DNA of 64,000 bases from Synechococcus sp. PCC 6312 (GTDB lineage Bacteria > Cyanobacteriota > Cyanobacteriia > Thermosynechococcales > Thermosynechococcaceae): the NCBI RefSeq assembly GCF_000316685.1, contig NC_019680.1, positions 1,179,501 to 1,243,500 of the forward strand, written 5' to 3'. Shown in pieces: positions 2,814-43,295 of this stretch (the stretch's first letter is position 1; every line of letters begins with the position of its first letter). A program made the translations under genes and the position numbers. The notes beneath the pieces are model-generated. The model was given only the letters and a program-made list of their open reading frames with translations. It was not told the origin of the DNA and searched no databases.

Positions 2814-4168
2814 TCCCAACCGAGATGGCGCATCAGCTTTTCAACAAAATTGGTGTAAACCATGCCGCTCTGAAACTCTGGGGTTTCTAGGATCTTTTGA
2901 TGGAAATTAATCGTTGTCGGTAGTCCGGTAATGGCACATTCCCGTAAGGCGCGCCTCATCCGCCGAATGGCACTGGCCCGATCCGGCCCCCAGACAATGA
3001 GCTTACCAATTAAGGAATCATAATAGGGGGGAATTTCATAGTCCGTATAAACGTGGGAGTCCATCCGCACTCCGGGGCCACCTGGGGGTAAATAACCGTT
3101 GATCCGGCCGGGATGGGGGCGAAAATTCCGCTCTGGATCCTCAGCGTTAATCCGACATTCAATGGCATGGCCAGTCAATTTAACATCATCTTGACGCAGG
3201 TTGAGACGCTCCCCTTGGGCAATCCGAATTTGCTCGGCAATAATGTCCAGGCCAGTCACCATTTCCGTCACTGGATGTTCGACTTGGATACGGGTATTCA
3301 TCTCCATAAAGTAGAAGTTATCACTGCCATCCAATAAAAATTCAATCGTTCCCGCCCCGACATAGTGGATGGCTTTGGCGACACGCACGGCGGCCTGGCC
3401 CATTTTTTGGCGCAATTTTGGGGTTAAGGCGGGGCTAGGAGCTTCTTCTAACAGCTTTTGATGACGGCGTTGAATCGAGCAATCCCGTTCGCCTAGGTGG
3501 ATGACATTGCCATAGCTATCGGCCAAAATCTGAAACTCAATGTGGCGGGGATTTTCAATAAATCGCTCCAAGTAAACCCCTGGATTGCCAAAGGCTGCCT
3601 CGGCTTCCCCTTGAGCGGCGGCCAACAGGCGACTGAGATCTTCCGGGGCCCGAACTAAACGCATCCCCCGCCCGCCCCCCCCGGCTGTGGCTTTAATCAT
3701 CAAGGGATAGCCAATCTTCCCAGCTACGATTTGGGCCATGACTTCATCGGTAATTAGCCCTTCACTACCAGGAATGGTCGGCACGCCACAGGATTTCATG
3801 GTGGTTTTAGCGGTGGATTTATCGCCCATGGCCTGCATTGCGGCGGGTGAGGGGCCAATAAAGGTAATTTGGTGATCAGCGCAAATTTCGGCAAAGCGGG
3901 AGTTTTCGGCAAGAAACCCATACCCTGGATGAATGGCCGTGGCGTTACGGGTGAGGGCAGCAGCAATGATGTTGGGAATGTTTAAATAACTGCGATTACT
4001 CGGTGGTTCCCCAATACAGACCGCTTCATCGGCGAGTTGAACATGGAGGGCATGGCGATCCACTGTGGAATGGACGGCAACGGTGGCAATTCCCATCTCT
4101 TCACAGGTGCGTAAGATCCGTAGGGCAATTTCCCCCCGATTAGCAATTAAGATTTTCGAGAACGCCAT
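2810..4168 (-). CDS. accC: Acetyl-CoA carboxylase, biotin carboxylase subunit
   Basis: ATP-dependent carboxylation of the biotin on BCCP, the first half-reaction of malonyl-CoA synthesis for fatty acids. The protein begins [20 protein letters not shown], the universal biotin carboxylase N-terminus. It contains the glycine-rich ATP-grasp loop [11 protein letters not shown], the HxxERDCS motif ([14 protein letters not shown]) and the catalytic [15 protein letters not shown] segment. The frame extends 21 bases further upstream to a TTG, but ATG at 4168 gives the family-typical start and about 452 aa. The other carboxylase subunits are not in the window. It is convergent with the EI24-like gene. 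Confidence 0.96.
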
Positions 4169-4507
4169 GGTGAATCCAAAGGTGAGCAACCCCTAATGCT
4201 ATCATTTCACGATTGAGTTCCATGATCATTCTCTCTAAGCCTCAAGACCCAGAATTTAGATTCCCCAGGCCTCGTAAAGGGATAAAATTATTGCCAAATC
4301 ATTTCTTGATGTGTAGTGTTAATAGTCTCAAGCTAACAAGGCTAGACTGGAAAAAACCTGATGAACACACTGCTTAGGGGGCTTACTGGTTGGGAAATAT
4401 TTGTGTAAGTCCACAGGTTAGGCGGAAATGGAGCTAAGACCGAGAAGCAGTCAAGCAACCCCTTGGAGGGTGACAGATGATCAGAAAAGTATCATGTTTA
4501 ACTAGGA
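4169..4507. other. Intergenic region between accC and tRNA-Thr
   Basis: About 340 bases with no open frame of convincing coding character on either strand. One copy of the CAGGCCT-type motif is present near 4264. It presumably holds the accC promoter (minus strand) and the tRNA 3' processing region. I see no riboswitch or hairpin terminator that I could defend. Confidence 0.4.
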
Positions 4508-4579
4508 AGCCCGTGACGAGGATTGAACTCGTGACCTCACCCTTACCAAGGGTGTGCTCTACCACTGAGCCACACGGGC
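4508..4579 (-). tRNA. tRNA-Thr (anticodon GGU)
   Basis: Read on the minus strand, the acceptor stem GCCCGTG pairs with CACGGGC. The D arm is GCTCAGTGGTAGAGC. The anticodon stem CACCC/GGGTG encloses the loop TTGGTAA, giving anticodon GGT. The T arm is ACGAG-TTCAATC-CTCGT. The discriminator is U and CCA is not encoded. It decodes ACC/ACU threonine codons. It lies alone between accC and ruvB. Confidence 0.96.
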
Positions 4580-4703
4580 CTGGATTATTAAAATAACATA
4601 CTTACAGAATCAGTTTGTAGTTTTTTAGCTCACTAAGCCTGTCTAAGCTAAGTTTTACCCTGTAGCCTCCGTTATTCTCAAGTTTCTAATCAGATTAGTC
4701 TCC

Positions 4704-5765
4704 ATGCCAATTCTTTCATCTGCGGCAAACCCTGAACCAATCCCCAATTTACTCCAGGCCAGGCCACTCCCTGAGGATAGTGCCAGTCGCCCTGAAGAAA
4801 AGATCCGCCCCCAATCGTTAGCTGAATATGTTGGACAAGGGGAATTAAAGCAGGTGCTAGATATTGCGATTCAAGCGGCCAAGTCACGCCAAGAATACCT
4901 GGATCACTTGTTGTTGTACGGCCCCCCAGGCCTGGGAAAAACCACCATCGCTTTAATTTTGGCCGTAGAAATGGGAGTTACCTGCAAAGTTACCAGTGCC
5001 CCAGCCTTAGAACGGCCGCGGGATATTGTCGGTCTCCTTGTTAACTTAAAGCCAGGGGATATTCTGTTTATAGATGAAATACATCGCCTCAGCCGCATGA
5101 CCGAGGAGTTACTCTATCCCGCCATGGAAGATTTTCGTCTAGACATCACCATTGGTAAAGGTCAGAGTGCCCGGAGTCGGAGCTTGCCGTTACAACGCTT
5201 TACCCTGGTCGGTGCAACAACCCGCGCCGGGGCTTTAACATCGCCCTTACGAGATCGCTTTGGACTGATTCAACGTTTACGTTTTTATAATCCTGAGGAG
5301 TTAAGCCAAATCATTAACCGCAACGCCCAAATTTTGCAGGCAACTATCACCCCTGAGGCCTGTTTAGAGATTGCTCGCCGGGCCCGGGGAACGCCGCGTA
5401 TTGCTAATCGCCTGCTGAAGCGAGTCCGGGATTATGCGGCCGTTAAATATCAGGGCAAGATTACGGATCTGATTGCTCAGGAGGCATTGGAACTTTTTAA
5501 TGTTGACCCCAAGGGGCTAGATTGGACAGATCGCCGCCTACTAACTGTTTTAATTGAAACCTATCGAGGTGGGCCAGTGGGCTTAGATGCTTTGGCCGCT
5601 GCAACGGGAGAAGATGCTCAAACGATTGAGGAGGTTTATGAGCCTTACCTGATGCAAATTGGCTACCTGCAACGGACACCCCGTGGACGGATGGCAACAC
5701 CCCAGGCCTGGCAGCATTTGGACTATCAATTTCCTGGCGAACAGTTACCTTTGTTGGATATTTAG
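4704..5765 (+). CDS. ruvB: Holliday junction branch migration ATPase RuvB
   Basis: Hexameric AAA+ motor that drives branch migration of Holliday junctions together with RuvA in recombinational repair. Walker A GPPGLGKT is at residues 73-80, Walker B is FIDEIHR, and the sensor region contains [18 protein letters not shown]. The C-terminal winged helix holds [28 protein letters not shown]. Length 353 aa includes a roughly 30-residue N-terminal extension, common in cyanobacteria. ruvA is not adjacent. Confidence 0.97.
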
Positions 5766-10142: not shown

Positions 10143-12548
10143 ATGGTATACAAAATGACTACGCCAAAGGATAAGTTCTCTGGTTCAGATAGAAATCCTA
10201 CCATGGCGACTACTCCCATGCTAACTTTTTCTCCTTTGTCTGATATTGATCGATTTTTCGCCTGTAGCTCAACGGTGGCTCTCAAGGTCAAGGGGATGCG
10301 ATGTGGCGGCTGTGTGGCCAATGTTGAAAAGCAACTGATGCAGCAACCGGGGGTAACTTCAGCGGCGGTTAATCTTGTCACAGCAACGGCAATGGTGGCC
10401 TATGAACCAAAAACCATTCAACCCCAGGCCCTTGCGGATCATCTCACCCAGGCCGGATTTCCTACCGAGGTTTTAAGCAGCGATCTCCCGATTACCCAAA
10501 GCCTTTTAGATGTCAGCGAATCCAACAGCCACACCGATGTTATTTTTGCCTTTCCCCATACCGATTTAATTCTAGCCATCGTTTTCCTGCTCCTCTCTGG
10601 GGTGGGTCATGTTCAAGATTGGTTAGGTCTGTCGCTGCATCATGTTCCGGGCTTACACATTCTCCACACCATGGCTTGGCATTGGGGCCTGGCAACCTTG
10701 GCATTGATCGGGCCAGGCCGGGGCATTATTCGCGATGGCTGGCAAAGTTTGTGGCGGGGCAATCCAACCATGAACACCCTGGTCGGCCTGGGGGCGGTGT
10801 CGTCCTATGTCGCTAGTGTGATTGCCTGGCGAGTACCCGGTCTGGCCTGGGAGTGTTTTTTCGATGAGCCGGTGATGATTATTGGTTTTATTCTTTTGGG
10901 ACGCACCCTAGAACAACGGGCGAGAAACAAGGCCAGCCAAAGTTTACGATCTCTCATTGCCCTCCAACCTGCCCTAGCCCAATGGGTTGCAAATCCAGAT
11001 CGGACGGATGGGGTAACAATTCCAGTAGCTCAGGTTCAAATAGGGGATTGGTTGCGGGTGTTGCCAGGGGATAAATTACCTGTGGATGGGGTGGTCGTCC
11101 GAGGCGAAACCTTTGTGACTGAGGCTGTGTTAACCGGAGAAGCACGACCCATTGCTAAAGTTCCGGGGGATACGGTCATGGCGGGCAGTTTGAACCAGGC
11201 CAGTGCGATCACAATCCAGGCCACGGCTTGCGGCAACGATACCCTTTTGGGGCAAATTCTCACTCTTGTCACCCAGGCCCAGACCCGGAAAGCTCCAATC
11301 CAACGACTGGCGGATTTAATTGCCGGATATTTCACCTATGGCGTGTTGGTCTTAGCGGCGGTGACGATTGGCTTTTGGTGGGGCCTGGCTCCGACGCTTT
11401 TGGGAATTGCTGGGGGAACAGCGGCCTTACTGTTGGGTTTGAAATTGGGTATGGCGGTCTTGGTGGTGGCTTGTCCCTGTGCCTTGGGTTTGGCGACTCC
11501 AACGGCAATTTTAGTGGGAACCAGCTTGGGGGCAGAACAGGGCCTCTTGATTCGGGGTGGGGATGTTTTAGAAACCCTGCATCGCTTAACCACGGTTGTC
11601 TTTGACAAAACTGGCACCCTGACTTGGGGCAAATTAACGGTACAAAACAGTATTCCCTTGGCGAACTTGGATGAAACTGAACTCTTACAATTAGCGGCTA
11701 GTCTGGAACAAAATTATCGTCATCCCATCGCCCAGGCCCTGTTAAGTGAAGCCAAAGATAAAAACATTACCTTACTCCCAATCACTGAAACTGAATCCAT
11801 TCCTGGCCTGGGAATTAAAGCCGTTTGGAATGAGCAAGTGTTACGAGTCGGCAGCTTGGCCTGGTTAGCAAAAGAAGGATTGAAAGCTGAGACTCTTGAG
11901 GATCAAAATCAACAGAACTTGAGTGTGATTGGAATTGGCCTGGATCAAAAACTGATTGGTTTAATTGCCCTGGAAGATCAACTGCGCTCTGATGCGGTTC
12001 AAACCCTAGAGAAACTGAAAGAAATAGGTCTGGAGATTCAAGTTTTAACAGGCGATTCAGAAACAGCAACCCAAGCAATTTTAGAACCACTCAATTTAAA
12101 GAAAACTCAAATCCAAACCCAACTCTTACCCACTGAAAAAGTGGCCTGGATTGAACAGCAAAAAGCGGCCGGAAAAGTCATCGCGATGGTTGGAGATGGG
12201 ACGAATGATGCACCTGCTTTGGCTGGGGCCGATGTGGGAATTGCCTTAGCCAGTGGCACCGATGTGGCTCTCGAAACTGCTGGCATTGTCCTCACCCATA
12301 ACCGTTTAGCCGATGTCGTGGCAGCAATTAAACTCAGTCGAGCGACATTTTCTAAAATTCAACAAAACCTGGCCTGGGCCTGTGGCTATAACCTGATTGC
12401 AATTCCGGTGGCGGCGGGTGTGTTGTTACCCGTTTGGCAGATTAGTTTGACCCCAGGCCTGGCAGCAGCGTGTATGGCTCTCAGTTCAATTTCTGTCGTA
12501 GCCAATGCCTTACTCTTGAGAAAAGAGTATCACCGCCCCCAGCCCTAA
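10143..12548 (+). CDS. copA: Copper-translocating P1B-type ATPase
   Basis: ATP-driven Cu(I) export or thylakoid delivery pump. An N-terminal heavy-metal domain carries GMRCGGC (Cys54, Cys57 from the ATG at 10143). Transmembrane helices follow, then the actuator motif TGEARP, the intramembrane metal site CPC (residues 444-446), the phosphorylated DKTGTLT (Asp488), the HP motif YRHPIAQAL and the hinge GDGTNDAPAL. CPC and GMxCxxC indicate copper rather than zinc or cadmium. The frame is open 24 bases further to a TTG. ATG at 10143, with GGAAG upstream, is preferred; 10155, 10203 and 10218 are alternative ATGs. Cyanobacteria have two such pumps (CtaA, PacS) and the sequence alone does not say which this is. 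purU follows after 3 bp. Confidence 0.92.
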   Translation: MVYKMTTPKDKFSGSDRNPTMATTPMLTFSPLSDIDRFFACSSTVALKVKGMRCGGCVANVEKQLMQQPGVTSAAVNLVTATAMVAYEPKTIQPQALADHLTQAGFPTEVLSSDLPITQSLLDVSESNSHTDVIFAFPHTDLILAIVFLLLSGVGHVQDWLGLSLHHVPGLHILHTMAWHWGLATLALIGPGRGIIRDGWQSLWRGNPTMNTLVGLGAVSSYVASVIAWRVPGLAWECFFDEPVMIIGFILLGRTLEQRARNKASQSLRSLIALQPALAQWVANPDRTDGVTIPVAQVQIGDWLRVLPGDKLPVDGVVVRGETFVTEAVLTGEARPIAKVPGDTVMAGSLNQASAITIQATACGNDTLLGQILTLVTQAQTRKAPIQRLADLIAGYFTYGVLVLAAVTIGFWWGLAPTLLGIAGGTAALLLGLKLGMAVLVVACPCALGLATPTAILVGTSLGAEQGLLIRGGDVLETLHRLTTVVFDKTGTLTWGKLTVQNSIPLANLDETELLQLAASLEQNYRHPIAQALLSEAKDKNITLLPITETESIPGLGIKAVWNEQVLRVGSLAWLAKEGLKAETLEDQNQQNLSVIGIGLDQKLIGLIALEDQLRSDAVQTLEKLKEIGLEIQVLTGDSETATQAILEPLNLKKTQIQTQLLPTEKVAWIEQQKAAGKVIAMVGDGTNDAPALAGADVGIALASGTDVALETAGIVLTHNRLADVVAAIKLSRATFSKIQQNLAWACGYNLIAIPVAAGVLLPVWQISLTPGLAAACMALSSISVVANALLLRKEYHRPQP

Positions 12549-12551
12549 CCC

Positions 12552-13406
12552 ATGAGCATTCCCACCGCTACACTTTTAGTTTCTTGTCCAGATCAACGGG
12601 GCCTGGTGGCCAAACTTTCCCAATTTATTTATAGCAACGGCGGTAATATCATCCATGCCGATCACCACACCGATGCCCAGGCCGGCCTGTTTTTAACCCG
12701 CTTAGAGTGGCAACTCGATGGGTTTCATCTCCCCCGTGAACTGATCGGCCCCGCATTCCAGGCCATTGCCCAACCCCTCCAGGCCCAGTGGCAGTTGCAT
12801 TTTTCTGATGTCCGGCCCCGCCTGGCCATTTGGGTGAGCAAGCAAGATCATTGCTTATTAGATTTAATTTGGCGATACCAGGCCGGGGAATTACCCGCCG
12901 ATATTGTTTGCATCATCAGTAACCATTCCACTTGCCAGGCCCTTGCGACTCAGTTTGAAATTGACTATCACTATTTACCCATTACCCCGAAAAATAAAGC
13001 CGAACAGGAAGAACGGGAACTAGAACTGCTAGCAGGCTATCGGATTGATCTAGTTGTTTTAGCCAAATATATGCAGGTGCTTAGTGCGGATTTTCTCGCT
13101 CAATTCAAGCCAGTGATCAATATTCACCATTCATTTTTACCAGCATTTGCCGGAGCTAACCCCTATCAACGGGCCCATGAACGGGGGGTAAAAATCATCG
13201 GTGCTACGGCCCACTATGTTACTCCAGAGTTAGATCAAGGGCCGATTATTGAGCAGGATGTGGTTCGGGTTAGTCATCGGGATGATGTTCCTGATTTGAT
13301 TCGCAAGGGCAAAGATTTAGAACGAATCGTTTTAGCTAGAGCCGTTCATCTGCACTTGCAACAACGGGTTTTAGCCTATGGAAATCGCACCGCAGTCTTT
13401 GCTTAA
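12552..13406 (+). CDS. purU: Formyltetrahydrofolate deformylase
   Basis: Hydrolyses 10-formyl-THF to THF and formate, balancing one-carbon pools. It has an N-terminal ACT domain (TATLLVSCPDQRGLVAKLSQ) and a C-terminal formyltransferase-fold domain. The catalytic NIHHSFLPAFAGANPY segment supplies His and Asn, with the conserved Asp in YVTPELDQGPIIEQD. Length 284 aa is standard. It starts 3 bp after copA and is probably cotranscribed. Its 3' end overlaps an opposite-strand DUF29 remnant. Confidence 0.95.
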   Translation: MSIPTATLLVSCPDQRGLVAKLSQFIYSNGGNIIHADHHTDAQAGLFLTRLEWQLDGFHLPRELIGPAFQAIAQPLQAQWQLHFSDVRPRLAIWVSKQDHCLLDLIWRYQAGELPADIVCIISNHSTCQALATQFEIDYHYLPITPKNKAEQEERELELLAGYRIDLVVLAKYMQVLSADFLAQFKPVINIHHSFLPAFAGANPYQRAHERGVKIIGATAHYVTPELDQGPIIEQDVVRVSHRDDVPDLIRKGKDLERIVLARAVHLHLQQRVLAYGNRTAVFA

Positions 13407-14980: not shown

Positions 14981-15754
14981 TTGCAGGCAATCATCCATAT
15001 CCAAGTTGTTCAAAGCAATCCCCATCTGCGCTCACTTTTGGGTTGGCATCTCCAGCAGGCGGGGTTTGTTGTTCATTTATCTTCTGGCTGTCAACACGCC
15101 CAAGAACTTTTCCAGACCCGCCATCCTGACCTGATTGTCCTGGATACAGATTTACCCGATGGCAGTGGCCTGGAACTCTGTCGGTGGCTACGGCGGCAAC
15201 AGCAGGTGCTAATTTTCATGCTCTCGGCTCGTAACCAGGAAGGAGATATTGTTGCCGGACTCAAGGCTGGGGCCGATGATTATTTGACTAAACCCTTTGG
15301 GATGCAAGAATTTTTAGTCCGGATTGAATCCCTCAGTCGCCGCGCCCACCCTCTCTTGCCTGCCTACTTGAATTTTGGAGATCTCCAAATTGATCTAATT
15401 CAACGCCGTGTTTTTGTCCGTCAACATCCCGCCGATTTAACACCCCAAGAATTTAGCTTGCTCTATGTCCTGACCCAGGCCGGTGGTGTTCCCCTCAGCC
15501 GCCAAGATTTACTCCTGCGGGCCTGGCCCGAATACATTGACAATCCACGTACCGTAGATACCCATATTCTATCCCTGAGAAAGAAAATCGAACTTGACCC
15601 CCAGCATCCCCGCATTATTCAAACCATTCGGAATGTTGGCTATCGCCTCAATCTTGATCTACTCAATGTCAGCCATCATCGGCAAATGACTACCAGTTCC
15701 TTGCCCCAACCTGTGCCACCGAAACCATCTCCTGTTTCCCAGGCCTGGAATTAA
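14981..15754 (+). CDS. OmpR-type response regulator with atypical receiver
   Basis: A receiver domain plus C-terminal winged-helix DNA-binding domain (LTPQEFSLLYVLTQAGG, then TVDTHILSLRKKIE and IRNVGYRL). The phosphoacceptor Asp is present (LIVLDTDLPDGSG), as are the Ser/Thr switch (FMLSA) and Lys (TKPF). The acidic pair near the N-terminus that holds Mg is replaced: the strand reads IQVVQSNPHLR instead of VVEDD. Phosphorylation may thus be weak or unnecessary, as in known atypical regulators. No ATG precedes the domain. TTG at 14981 with AAAGG five bases upstream is chosen; the frame is open back to a TTG at 14903. No histidine kinase is adjacent. A Pro-rich tail follows the DNA-binding domain. 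Confidence 0.82.
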   Translation: MQAIIHIQVVQSNPHLRSLLGWHLQQAGFVVHLSSGCQHAQELFQTRHPDLIVLDTDLPDGSGLELCRWLRRQQQVLIFMLSARNQEGDIVAGLKAGADDYLTKPFGMQEFLVRIESLSRRAHPLLPAYLNFGDLQIDLIQRRVFVRQHPADLTPQEFSLLYVLTQAGGVPLSRQDLLLRAWPEYIDNPRTVDTHILSLRKKIELDPQHPRIIQTIRNVGYRLNLDLLNVSHHRQMTTSSLPQPVPPKPSPVSQAWN

Positions 15755-15780
15755 CCCATCTCCTAACCCCTGAAGTGTCC

Positions 15781-39043: not shown

Positions 39044-42000
39044 ATGAAATTAGCGAATATCCTCAAAGACTCAAATTACAAGCTGTTGCAGTTTACGACC
39101 GCTGAGATTGAGCAGTTAGAGCAGAGCATTATTCTTAAAGAGGCTAAGAGTGGTGAAGCTCCCTATACCGATTGTTTAGTACGCAAAAAACAAATCAAAC
39201 TTACGCCAGAAGAGGTGATTCGGCAACTTTATTTACGAGTCTTGACCGAACGTTTGAACTATCCTCTCAGCCGCATTCAGGTTGAGTATGGGGTCAACTT
39301 TGGAACAGAGGTGAAACGGGCAGACATTGTAGTAATGGATAAAGACCGACCCAATGCAGTGTACATGATTGTAGAGCTAAAGAAACCAAAACTTAAAGAT
39401 GGCAAAGGACAGCTTCGCTCTTACTGTAATGCTACTGGGGCGCAGATTGCTGTTTGGACAAATGGGGCGCAGATTTCCTATTACCAGCGCAAGGATCCTA
39501 ATTATTTTGAAGATATCCCTAAGTTACCAAATGCGAATGAAACCCTGGCTGATATTCTCAAAATCAAGTTCACGCTGGAAGATTTGATTGCTAATGACAA
39601 GTTAGTAAAGGAGAACAAATCTCTCAAGACTTTGATCGAAGAAATGGAAGATGAGGTGCTAGCCAATGCTGGGGTAGATGTTTTTGAGGAATTGTTTAAG
39701 CTGATTTTTACTAAACTCTATGATGAGTGGTTTGCTGGTCAAGGTAATCGTCGCTCTAGCCACTCGCTTGAGTTCCGCAATACCGGACAGACAGAAAGCG
39801 ATCTATATACTAAGATTCAATCTCTTTTTGATAAAGCCAAGAAAAAATGGGAGGGTGTATTTAGCGAAGATACCAAGATTAGTCTGACGCGCTCTCATTT
39901 ATCGGTATGTGTATCGTCTTTGGAAAACGTTAAGTTATTCAATTCCAATCTTGAAGTTATTGATGAAGCTTTTGAATATTTAATTAATAAGAGTAGTCGG
40001 GGTGAGAAAGGTCAGTTTTTTACACCTCGTTATGTCATTGATATGTGTGTGAGAATGCTCAATCCCCAAGAGGATGAGTACATCATTGATACAGCAGCAG
40101 GTTCGTCTGGATTTCCAGTTCATACAATCTTTTATGTCTGGCGACAGATTTTAGATGATGAGGGTTTAGAAGCAAGTCATTTATTTTCTTTGGAAGATAA
40201 GCCACCTCGGTGTAAAGAGTATGTAGAAGATAAGGTTTTTGCGATTGATTTTGATGAAAAGGCTGTGCGTGTGGCCCGGACGTTAAATCTAATTGCCGGA
40301 GATGGACAGACGAATGTGTTGCATTTGAATACGCTGGACTACGAACTGTGGGATGAAGTGACGGAGCAGGAGAATTGGGATGATGTTTACCATGAGGGTT
40401 TTAGGCGACTGAAGAAGCGACGACCCAAAGGCAGCAAGGACTATCGAGAGTTCCAGTTTGATGTGTTGATGGCGAATCCACCCTTTGCCGGAGATATTAA
40501 GGAACCGCGGATGATTGCCCGTTATGACTTGGCCAAAAAGGCAAATGGAAAATGGGAAACCAAGGTTGGGCGCGACATTTTATTTATTGAACGCAACCTG
40601 GACTTTCTGAAACCGGGGGGCAGAATGGCGATTGTGCTGCCTCAAGGACGGTTTAACAACTCTTCTGATAAAAACATTCGAGATTATATTGCAGCGCGCT
40701 GTCGAATTTTGGCGGTCGTAGGGCTACATAGCAACACGTTTAAACCGCACACAGGGACAAAGACTTCGGTGTTGTTTGTGCAGAAGTGGAATGATGACCC
40801 CAAAGCTGGCGCACTCTGTCCCCGAAAGGATGACTACAATATCTTTTTTGCGACAATGCGGAAGTCGGGCAAGGATAATTCCGGTGAAAAGATTTATGTC
40901 AAGAAGCCTGACGGTTCGGGGGATTTGCGGTTCGATGAACATAATCATTGGATTGTGGATCATGATTTGTTTAACCATGAGGGACTGACGGAAGACGGGA
41001 TTGCCGAAGCCTTTATTGAGTTTGCCAAAAAGGAGAATCTCAGTTTTTTTGAACCCGGCCCATCTGTAACACCGTTTGATGCTGTGAGGTATCAGCAGTT
41101 AATGGATGGGCTTGAAGCAGTTGAGTTGAAATTTTCTGATGTATTAGAAGATAATGAATTGCTTAGAATTGACAGCGAGTATTTTAAGATTGAGTACCTA
41201 GAAAAATTAAGACAAATCAAAAGATTACCTTATCAAAAAATTGAAGAATTTGCATATGTAACTGATGGAATTCATGAATCAATTCAATTTGATGAAGATA
41301 GTTCAATCAATTTAATCTCTGCAAAATCTCCTAAGGAAAACATATTCGATCTATCAGGAAATGAATGTATATCTCATGAACAACATAAGAAAAATCCTCG
41401 TACCACACTCAAAGAAGGCGATGTAATTATTTCAACAGTTGGCACAATTGGTAACTGTGCAGTAGTAGATGAAACGATTCTTCCGGCAAATTCTGACAGG
41501 CACGTTGGAATTGTGCGCATAGAGAAGGATTATAAGTCGTATTTCTTGTCTACTTTTATTCTTTCTAAGTATGGAAAATTTCAGACTCTTAGAGAATCCA
41601 CAGGAAATGTTCAACTCAATCTTTTTATATATAAAATAAAGTCCCTTAAAATTCCTCTTCTTTCTGAGAAGTTTCAAGAGACAGTTGAAGGATTGGTTCA
41701 CTTTGCACACGCATCTTTAAGGCAATCGAAAAAAATATATCAACAAGCTGAGAATTTGCTGTTGTCGGAGCTTGGTTTGCAGGCCTGGCAGCCCACGGAA
41801 AAAACTGTTGCAGTCAAAAGTTTTTCTGAGTCGTTCCTATCTTCCGGTCGCTTCGATGCTGAGTATTACCAGCCTAAATACGATGAACTTTATGATCATC
41901 TAGAAACCTCTTGTTCAGAGAAAGGGTGGGAGCTAAAAAGGCTAGAAGATTTATCATCACTCTTCAAATACGGAACTTCTGAGCCATTTGAATATCTTGA

Positions 42001-42547
42001 TCAAGGTTTACCTTTTCTGAGAATTGCTGATTTGCAGAAGTATCGCTTCAGTGAAAAAGACTTAAAATTTATTTCGCAAGAAGCCGCCAAGCAGCAACAA
42101 GCAAATGTCAAGACAGGTGATGTTCTAATCTCTCGAAGTGGAACACTGGGGCTTGCTGTCGTAATTCCCGAATACTTAAATAATGCTGTCTATGGAAGTT
42201 ATTTTATTCTAACGAGACCCGATAAAACATCTATACTGCCAACCTATCTTGCCCTTTATATAAACTCATTGGTTGGTAAGCTGCAAACTGAGCAAGCGAA
42301 TACAGGCGGGATTCAAACTAACTTAACAATTCCTGTGCTTGAATCTTTACTGATCGCATGCCCTCCGTTAGAAGTTCAGCAGAAGTTTGTTCATAAGGTT
42401 ACTCAATCCTACGATACAGAAGACAAGTCCAAACAACTGCTAGAAATTGCTAAAACAGGAGTAGAACGGGCAATCGAAACAGATGAAGCAACGGCAAAAA
42501 ATTGGATTAACCAGCAGCTAGAAGTCTTGGGGATAGAATTGACATGA
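39044..42547 (+). CDS. Single-chain restriction-modification enzyme (nuclease-methylase-specificity fusion)
   Basis: 1167 aa combining all three activities. Residues 45-140 form an HSDR_N-like PD-(D/E)xK nuclease, with E81, D94 in KRADIVVMD, and E111-x-K113 in VELKKPK. Residues 300-650 form an N6-adenine methyltransferase of the HsdM type, with SAM motif DTAAGSSGF (349-357) and catalytic NPPF (478-481). The C-terminus (about 690-1140) has two HsdS-like target recognition domains separated by helical spacers, each with an EGDVIIS- or TGDVLISRSGT-type turn. There is no helicase motif, so it is not Type I. The architecture matches Type IIB/IIG enzymes such as AloI, which recognise a bipartite site and may cut on both sides. 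The first recognition domain is markedly AT-rich. The stop codon overlaps the next ATG (ATGA). Confidence 0.88.
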   Translation: MKLANILKDSNYKLLQFTTAEIEQLEQSIILKEAKSGEAPYTDCLVRKKQIKLTPEEVIRQLYLRVLTERLNYPLSRIQVEYGVNFGTEVKRADIVVMDKDRPNAVYMIVELKKPKLKDGKGQLRSYCNATGAQIAVWTNGAQISYYQRKDPNYFEDIPKLPNANETLADILKIKFTLEDLIANDKLVKENKSLKTLIEEMEDEVLANAGVDVFEELFKLIFTKLYDEWFAGQGNRRSSHSLEFRNTGQTESDLYTKIQSLFDKAKKKWEGVFSEDTKISLTRSHLSVCVSSLENVKLFNSNLEVIDEAFEYLINKSSRGEKGQFFTPRYVIDMCVRMLNPQEDEYIIDTAAGSSGFPVHTIFYVWRQILDDEGLEASHLFSLEDKPPRCKEYVEDKVFAIDFDEKAVRVARTLNLIAGDGQTNVLHLNTLDYELWDEVTEQENWDDVYHEGFRRLKKRRPKGSKDYREFQFDVLMANPPFAGDIKEPRMIARYDLAKKANGKWETKVGRDILFIERNLDFLKPGGRMAIVLPQGRFNNSSDKNIRDYIAARCRILAVVGLHSNTFKPHTGTKTSVLFVQKWNDDPKAGALCPRKDDYNIFFATMRKSGKDNSGEKIYVKKPDGSGDLRFDEHNHWIVDHDLFNHEGLTEDGIAEAFIEFAKKENLSFFEPGPSVTPFDAVRYQQLMDGLEAVELKFSDVLEDNELLRIDSEYFKIEYLEKLRQIKRLPYQKIEEFAYVTDGIHESIQFDEDSSINLISAKSPKENIFDLSGNECISHEQHKKNPRTTLKEGDVIISTVGTIGNCAVVDETILPANSDRHVGIVRIEKDYKSYFLSTFILSKYGKFQTLRESTGNVQLNLFIYKIKSLKIPLLSEKFQETVEGLVHFAHASLRQSKKIYQQAENLLLSELGLQAWQPTEKTVAVKSFSESFLSSGRFDAEYYQPKYDELYDHLETSCSEKGWELKRLEDLSSLFKYGTSEPFEYLDQGLPFLRIADLQKYRFSEKDLKFISQEAAKQQQANVKTGDVLISRSGTLGLAVVIPEYLNNAVYGSYFILTRPDKTSILPTYLALYINSLVGKLQTEQANTGGIQTNLTIPVLESLLIACPPLEVQQKFVHKVTQSYDTEDKSKQLLEIAKTGVERAIETDEATAKNWINQQLEVLGIELT

Positions 42548-42852
42548 AACTTAAAAATATTGAAATTCCTGTTGATCAAATTTCAGCACTCTGTCAACAA
42601 TGGCATATTTCTAAACTTTCGTTATTTGGCTCAGTTTTGCGAGATGACTTTTCACCCACCAGTGACATCGATATTTTAGTTGAGTTTGAATCTGGCTTTA
42701 CCCCTAGCTTCTTCAAGTTATATCAAATTCAAGAGGAACTTTCAGCTTTATTTGATAACCGACCCATTGATCTGATCACGACTAAATTTCTCAATCAACG
42801 AATTCGCGATCGCGTTTTAGCCACAGCTAAGGTTTTTTATGTCGCAACGTGA
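42544..42852 (+). CDS. MntA-type nucleotidyltransferase antitoxin
   Basis: 102-aa minimal nucleotidyltransferase with the GS-x10-DxD motif (G29 S30, D41, D43) in LFGSVLRDDFSPTSDIDILV. In characterised MntA/HepT pairs this enzyme neutralises the HEPN toxin by adding AMP to a Tyr. Its ATG overlaps the stop of the restriction gene by four bases and its end overlaps the HEPN start by 14 bases, so the three genes form one coupled operon. It contains one GCGATCGC octamer (42806-42813), rare in this window, hinting at origin in another cyanobacterium. Confidence 0.88.
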   Translation: MKLKNIEIPVDQISALCQQWHISKLSLFGSVLRDDFSPTSDIDILVEFESGFTPSFFKLYQIQEELSALFDNRPIDLITTKFLNQRIRDRVLATAKVFYVAT

Positions 42853-43180
42853 TGACCTAGTTTATATTAGACACATGATCGATACTGCCAACAAAGCGAT
42901 TGATTTTGTAGCAGGTTTAAGCCGAGAAGACTTTGATAATAATGAGCAACTGAGATTAGCAATCACTCATCTATTGCAAATTATTGGCGAAGCTGCTCGA
43001 AGAGTTTCTTTAGAGTTTCGAGATACTCATCCAGAAATTCCCTGGAAAGCAATCGTTGGAATGAGAAGTAAGGTCGTTCATGACTACTTAAACGTAGATG
43101 AAGATGTAGTTTGGAACACTGTAAAAAATGATCTTTCTCCCTTAGTTCTGGAACTAGAAAAACTTTTGCTCAAATTTTAA
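42839..43180 (+). CDS. HepT-like HEPN toxin (DUF86)
   Basis: 113-aa HEPN-domain RNase toxin. The RX4HXY motif is at R76, H81 and Y83 (RSKVVHDY), with Tyr83 being the residue AMPylated in homologous systems. It begins MSQRDDLVYIRHMIDTANKA, typical of DUF86. It overlaps the MntA gene and forms a Type VII-like toxin-antitoxin pair. Its stop is followed directly by a decayed copy of the restriction gene tail. Confidence 0.88.
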   Translation: MSQRDDLVYIRHMIDTANKAIDFVAGLSREDFDNNEQLRLAITHLLQIIGEAARRVSLEFRDTHPEIPWKAIVGMRSKVVHDYLNVDEDVVWNTVKNDLSPLVLELEKLLLKF

Positions 43181-43181
43181 A

Positions 43182-43295
43182 CAACTACTTGAAATTCATG
43201 AAACAGGAGTAGCCCAAGCAATTGAAGCTGATGAAACCACCGCAATAACATAGATTAATTAGGAACTTCAAATTTTGGGTATTAACTTAAATTAA
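43182..43295 (+). pseudogene. Decayed second copy of the restriction gene 3' end
   Basis: 38 codons, colinear without gaps to the last 38 codons (including stop) of the restriction-modification gene. QLLEIHETGVAQAIEADETT corresponds to QLLEIAKTGVERAIETDEAT, and ELQILGINLN to QLEVLGIELT. Two in-frame TAG codons replace the Trp (codon 24) and the first Gln (codon 27). The toxin-antitoxin pair therefore sits between two copies of the restriction gene end, one intact and one dead. Confidence 0.82.

Follow-up and report, generated by a model that had tools for sequence, protein, structure and literature searches.

A recurring pattern in cyanobacteria is that small toxin-antitoxin (TA) or nuclease genes come to lie directly behind a particular restriction gene, provide it with a new end and displace its old one downstream, and the stretch of Synechococcus sp. 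PCC 6312 DNA analysed here (64,000 nucleotides of contig NC_019680.1, hereafter the window) is one case of it. In the window, an MntA/HepT pair lies between the real end of a restriction-modification gene and a second, degenerate copy of that end, referred to below as the ghost. The ghost is probably the original, now displaced, 3' end of this gene, left behind when a cassette integrated by homologous recombination in the tail of the gene. We hold this explanation with fair confidence because it is carried by comparisons of loci before and after an insertion.

The restriction gene of the window and its second tail

The features on which the analysis is based are the following.
39044-42547, + strand: single-chain restriction-modification gene, 1167 aa (PF13588, PF02384, PF01420; RM.BsaXI match)
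42434-42547, + strand: real tail of the restriction gene, i.e. its last 37 codons and stop (sequence; tail-profile match)
42544-42852, + strand: MntA-like antitoxin, a nucleotidyltransferase (PF01909, E 2e-12; NCBIfam MntA, 44.6 bits against a cut-off of 60)
42839-43180, + strand: HepT-like toxin, a HEPN RNase (PF01934, E 4e-26; NCBIfam HepT, 39.2 bits against a cut-off of 60)
43182-43295, + strand: ghost tail with 2 in-frame TAG codons, probably the displaced former end of the restriction gene (alignment; own-genome search; tail-profile match)

The restriction gene encodes, in one ORF, an HSDR_N_2 nuclease (PF13588), an N6 methyltransferase (PF02384) and a C-terminal specificity region (PF01420). 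The best solved relative of its product is RM.BsaXI (8w0p, E 2e-21), and S.BsaXI matches part of the C-terminal region. Pfam Methylase_S covers one stretch only (residues 960-1131), and the first recognition domain is supported by PADLOC and PDB matches. Judging from these domains and relatives, the product is probably a Type IIB-like (TstI/BsaXI-like) enzyme. TstI is a known single-chain Type IIB enzyme, which combines nuclease, methyltransferase and recognition functions in one chain as the window gene does; unlike the window gene, it comes with no mention of a cassette array in the parts of that paper on which we draw (PMC4027205). Assignment of the gene to the MADS defence system was rejected, since the scores for MAD2 (321 against 720 bits) and MAD5 (152 against 400 bits) were far under the cut-off.

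The end of the restriction gene overlaps the MntA start in the sequence ATGA, and the MntA ORF in turn overlaps the HepT ORF. A nucleotidyltransferase gene adjacent to a gene for a HepT-like RNase is the layout of type VII MntA/HepT systems, and this layout is present in the window; both proteins stay under the NCBIfam equivalog cut-offs of 60 bits (44.6 for MntA and 39.2 for HepT). Members of the two families carry the motifs GSX10DXD (MntA) and RX4HXY (HepT), and by eye we found GSVLRDDFSPTSDID in the MntA translation and RSKVVHDY in that of HepT.

The ghost directly adjoins the stop codon of the toxin gene (43178-43180), and the match to the tail profile starts 2 bases within that codon. 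The initial annotation, made from the letters of the sequence, had described a gap-free match to the last 38 codons of the restriction gene, including the stop position and with two TAG codons, directly past the toxin stop, and both the match and its position were borne out. Ungapped comparison of 42434-42547 with 43182-43295, the unit being 37 codons plus a stop at a common position, showed identity at 79 of 114 bases and 23 of 38 codons, with TAG occurring twice in frame in the ghost. By codon position, 29/38, 30/38 and 20/38 bases were identical at positions 1, 2 and 3, and in steps of 15 bases the identity fell to background level immediately outside the match at either edge. The local alignment that the annotation had proposed gave a score of 90, above all 2000 dinucleotide shuffles of the ghost (mean 18.9, maximum 35), and chance similarity was thus rejected; against the whole 3.5 kb ORF, 300 shuffles reached at most 45. 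When the ghost was slid without gaps over both strands of the window, its best non-self place was the real tail (79/114), the next best place reaching 52/114. A search of the organism's own genome with the last 768 bases of the gene returned only 2 places at E <= 0.001, namely, the gene itself and the ghost (E 4e-10). The next gene past the ghost is fabH on the opposite strand, and the ghost of the window is therefore without an older cassette.

Tails and cassettes in other genomes

A profile built from 16 tails, which are conserved (mean column identity 74%), was used to search 386 cyanobacterial genomes and gave 54 matches in 40 genomes, two rows of one genome (G288) being pieces of a single tail. 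Nine matches lie in full-length restriction-gene frames of 1114-1194 aa and 2 in frames of 470-488 aa; the frames of the other 43 reach at most 247 aa, and these matches represent ghosts, the ends of broken genes or orphan tails. Internal stops occur in 14 of the 54. A scan of the collection for relatives of the window gene gave 80 loci. Among 75 loci examined for tail copies, 56 showed no match and 9 a match, 8 were too short and 2 were left open; L146, L184, L179, L166 and L161 were left out of the mapping as duplicates of other loci. Extra tail copies behind the gene were found in several cyanobacteria and in Methylovulum (L053), which we take to be a gammaproteobacterium and which is the 1 clear case outside cyanobacteria. 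In the Methylovulum locus, the cassette preceding the ghost (12499-13321) consists of an IS200-like transposase-domain gene and a DUF2442 gene. We do not regard the matches in L051, L082 and L043 (the last a GC-rich repeat) as tails, and the one in L054 is doubtful.

As a control, we determined how often the last 38 codons of a gene recur in the 3 kb behind it: this was so for 9 of 64 family genes and, in the same loci, for 13 of 875 others. The 9 are inflated by three loci fetched for their tails (L145, L160 and L178) and by the window, which is the finding itself; the 64 are a BLAST selection that contains some partial or separate specificity genes; and the 13 include 2 Uma2 genes of arrays and several genes that look like tandem relatives. 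Among loci not chosen for their tails, the count was 5/56, and 4/14 for the cyanobacterial ones.

In the mapped loci, tails alternate with small genes, as determined by Pfam searches and clustering. The cassette classes comprise MntA/HepT, Uma2, RelB-like plus ParE, DUF2281 plus PIN, HicB plus HicA, and DUF559; further cassettes consist of a PIN gene or a PemK/MazF-like gene, each with an unmatched partner. In cassette c2, c5, a gene with RelE/ParE matches just below the cut-off follows a small gene that no Pfam family matches, and class c21 gave no Pfam match. The order in L145 runs from the gene through DUF559, a ghost, MntA/HepT, c2+c5, a MazF-like pair, a tail remnant and a second MntA/HepT to a last ghost; its first MntA/HepT pair is 72 and 75% identical to that of the window. 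L160 has the same layout as the window (gene-tail-MntA/HepT-ghost), with a different MntA/HepT pair (41 and 37% to the window's).

Cassettes may outlive the restriction gene, since in L158, L163 and L165 the gene carries large internal deletions and the cassette ORFs behind it stay open. L147 is an array without a restriction gene in the 9.5 kb fetched, and L033 holds a tail remnant and MntA/HepT-like sequence without a restriction gene in 11 kb. In L033, after the tail remnant and MntA, a HepT-like start is fused in one ORF (4147-5190) to unrelated membrane-protein-like sequence, which looks like a deletion fusion. L158 contains a second tail-Uma2 unit (15668-15774) about 10 kb from the first and away from the restriction gene.

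We rejected a viral origin of the tail, as 43 stretches matched a pattern and 0 were confirmed. A large plasmid reservoir was likewise rejected, as 1 of 72,556 records in the collection searched was positive, namely, pAQ6 of Picosynechococcus sp. PCC 7002. This plasmid carries a relative of the restriction gene (L212, NC_010480.1, 101758-105897), followed 17 nt on by a small hypothetical gene and then by an overlapping gene annotated as a RelE/ParE-family toxin. Gene and cassette can thus reside together on a mobilizable plasmid.

Origin of the ghost

Three comparisons between loci of other genomes show the state before and after an insertion. L160 (gene-tail-MntA/HepT-ghost) and L045 (gene-tail-Uma2-ghost-MntA/HepT-ghost) share 850 nt at 90% identity with no gap, running from tail position 18 through MntA/HepT to the ghost; this segment begins as the real gene end in L160, and in L045 the L160-type gene end is a ghost with stops behind an inserted Uma2 gene. 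L180 and L178 differ by a c21 insert, the ghost, leader and antitoxin start matching over 239 nt at 94%. L056 and L039 compared with L036 reveal a Uma2 insert (493 nt at 80% and 366 nt at 82%); the restriction genes of L045 and L056 are short or interrupted N-terminally, which leaves the comparison of their tails unaffected. In these three comparisons the old 3' end lies downstream of a new one and is still the gene end in relatives, and the ghost is therefore a former gene end in those cases.

The first history offered by the initial annotation, in which the pair came with a new gene end and the original end now lies downstream, is thus seen as displacement in three other sets of loci. The annotation had also suggested looking for genomes that lack the pair and in which the second tail is the real end: displaced ends that are still gene ends were found in other genomes, and none was found at the window's own locus. 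The window gene had no full-length match in 57 other genomes, and its own state before insertion was not seen. A search from the fabH side in relatives (fabH in 27/27 loci, plsX in 26/27) found no empty site, since the short loci contained none of the 3 genes that were tested from the opposite side of the window gene.

Integration probably proceeds as follows. A TA pair or small nuclease gene, flanked as a cassette by a tail copy, would recombine homologously inside the resident tail of about 114 bp. The crossover would create a working hybrid end, its 5' part resident and its 3' part derived from the cassette, and downstream of it would lie the cassette and then the old tail of the resident, untranslated and decaying. 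Repeated rounds would build arrays of tail, cassette, ghost, cassette and ghost. Recombination would presumably be of the RecA type, with circles or transformed DNA as likely donors; no circular intermediate or donor was observed.

The two halves of the tail bear on where the crossover falls. The 3' end (last 20 bases plus 12 nt) was more similar between tails with the same cassette (0.73, 137 pairs) than between tails with different cassettes (0.56, 883 pairs; p = 0.0002, the smallest value possible with 5000 permutations). The 5' half (first 54 bases) showed no cassette effect (0.851 for 70 same-cassette pairs and 0.851 for 450 different ones, p = 0.49), nor was there a cassette signal for the whole tail once similarity of the methyltransferase domain was removed (11 same-cassette pairs against 80, p = 0.61). 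In a nearest-neighbour test, 16 of 33 tails shared their cassette with the nearest tail, against a shuffle mean of 4.5 and a maximum of 15 in 5000; the permutation and nearest-neighbour tests assume independent tails, and shared ancestry of some loci overstates their strength. The identity tests omit gap-aligned tails, which the table of spacings keeps, and the tail-versus-tail comparison also omits short ones (49 kept, 33 labelled, a label requiring a classified gene start <=200 nt away). A crossover inside the tail would explain all three results, i.e. a front that goes with the resident gene, an end that goes with the cassette and no signal over the whole tail. Because the cassette is reflected in the end of the tail and not in its 5' half, the present tail of the window is probably a hybrid.

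Spacers between tail and start codon are typical of the cassette class and alike behind a gene end or a ghost: 10 nt in 12/15 cases for Uma2, 38 nt in 5/5 for the RelB/ParE class c4c7 and 84-86 nt in 6/6 for DUF2281/PIN. Looser spacers were observed for MntA/HepT (10 nt in 5/12) and c2c5 (28-41 nt, with one at 130). As for the downstream border, the Uma2-to-ghost junction is alike in four genomes (L036, L045, L155 and L175) despite different followers, as if it belonged to the cassette and the cassette brought its own border.

The alternative history in the initial annotation, namely, that gene end and pair were duplicated in place and that the outer tail then decayed, would yield an identical layout in one step. 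The Uma2-linked tails of L038 do look locally duplicated (0.92 to each other, 0.87 and 0.90 to outside tails), and the two tails of L145 possibly so (0.96 to each other, 0.95 and 0.96 to outside tails). The window fits this alternative less well: its tail is 0.87 identical to Nostoc tails (L056 and L045) and 0.73 to its own ghost, a comparison weakened because the best identity of the ghost to any tail is also only 0.73. Moreover, the compared tails in L045, L050, L147, L158 and L160 match outside tails better than each other, neighbouring tails carry different cassettes, and the before/after comparisons show insertion. We therefore regard local duplication as unlikely for the window.

Integron gene cassettes are compact and are arrayed between related repeats at one entry point, and the cassettes described here share this arrangement, with related tails as the repeats. 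In 18 of the 24 intervals mapped, no more than 21 nt separate the end of the last cassette ORF from the ghost match that follows, or the two overlap. This compactness, together with the like Uma2 junction, fits the preferred reading and would also suit a site-specific system whose integrase recognises the tail as attachment site. Against such a system, the left borders of ghosts vary from profile position 1 to 74; this also tells against the preferred reading, as some of the borders may be illegitimate junctions. An attC-like folded site was rejected, as the folding of the window tail (both strands), of the lower strand of the ghost and of the lower strand of the L160 tail did not exceed that of shuffled DNA. 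No tyrosine recombinase of family PF00589 is encoded in the window, the nearest one in the same genome lying about 107 kb from the gene. Given these borders and folds and the search for this one recombinase family in the window's own genome, site-specific integration appears very unlikely. Much the same holds for the idea that the ghost is the remnant of a second, lost hsdS-like specificity gene duplicated behind the toxin: specificity genes and their fragments often occur in tandem, as at the pneumococcal tvr locus (PMC6265443, in part), and yet no ghost behind a cassette aligned before residue ~1115 in the mapped loci. A divergent recognition domain could escape such an alignment; even so, we consider a lost specificity gene highly improbable. 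Displacement of the former gene end by an incoming cassette thus remains the preferred reading.

Known systems and possible consequences

The closest parallel is the displacement of Rhs C-terminal ends, in which an incoming end displaces the 3' end of the gene and dissociated, often decayed ends are arrayed downstream; Jackson et al. (2009, PMC2935791) proposed that this occurs by homologous recombination and involves circular intermediates. The displaced Rhs tip is variable, whereas here the conserved tail of a restriction enzyme (mean column identity 74%) is the common border, and the cargo consists of separate TA or nuclease genes (PMC2935791). The restriction-gene tail would thus work by analogy with Rhs displacement; it is not filed as a member of that system, because the displaced part is conserved and the cargo separate. 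The pneumococcal tvr/SpnIV locus resembles the present loci in its restriction specificity genes, direct repeats, circle-mediated rearrangement and TA homologue (PMC6265443). It differs in that its recognition domains are shuffled by a dedicated recombinase, tvrR, which the TA homologue keeps in check. The loci described here instead build up numerous unrelated cassettes, and the single genome searched for a recombinase, that of the window, showed none close to the gene. The contrast with integrons lies in the lack of an attC-like fold, of a fixed junction and of a nearby integrase (PF00589, in the organism's own genome).

Known behaviour of TA pairs and the overlap of the genes suggest that cassettes could persist by addiction or by guarding the restriction gene, perhaps via coupled translation. 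More tentatively, the 3' end of the restriction gene might be a general integrase-free docking platform, the tail being both a needed protein segment and a homology address for unrelated TA or nuclease cassettes moving between cyanobacteria, with each insertion rebuilding the end of the enzyme and tying the enzyme to another module, addictive or guarding. Integration in the tail would provide a concrete route for the assembly of composite defence operons, in which a conserved coding end acts as a repeat that adds modules serially and leaves the host gene intact. If this is true, the order of acquisition would be readable, the cassette nearest the restriction gene being the newest, the presence of many unrelated TA families behind the same enzyme would be explained, and it would become testable whether TA pairs protect the restriction gene from loss. 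No earlier description of TA cassettes at the duplicated end of a restriction gene was found in a literature search that covered mostly titles and the starts of abstracts, most subscription journals being outside its scope, and this absence lends weak support to novelty.

Finally, we compared synonymous codons over 19 genes. Their identity in the tail was 0.66, against a mean of 0.54 for segments of 38 codons, and 3.8% of segments were as high. The highest synonymous-codon identity in the restriction gene family was observed just before the first recognition domain, corresponding to ~41012-41143 of the window (residues ~657-700), which is likely a second recombination joint, used for domain exchange. 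Raised synonymous identity both in the tail and before the first recognition domain fits the notion of recombination joints flanking the recognition domains.
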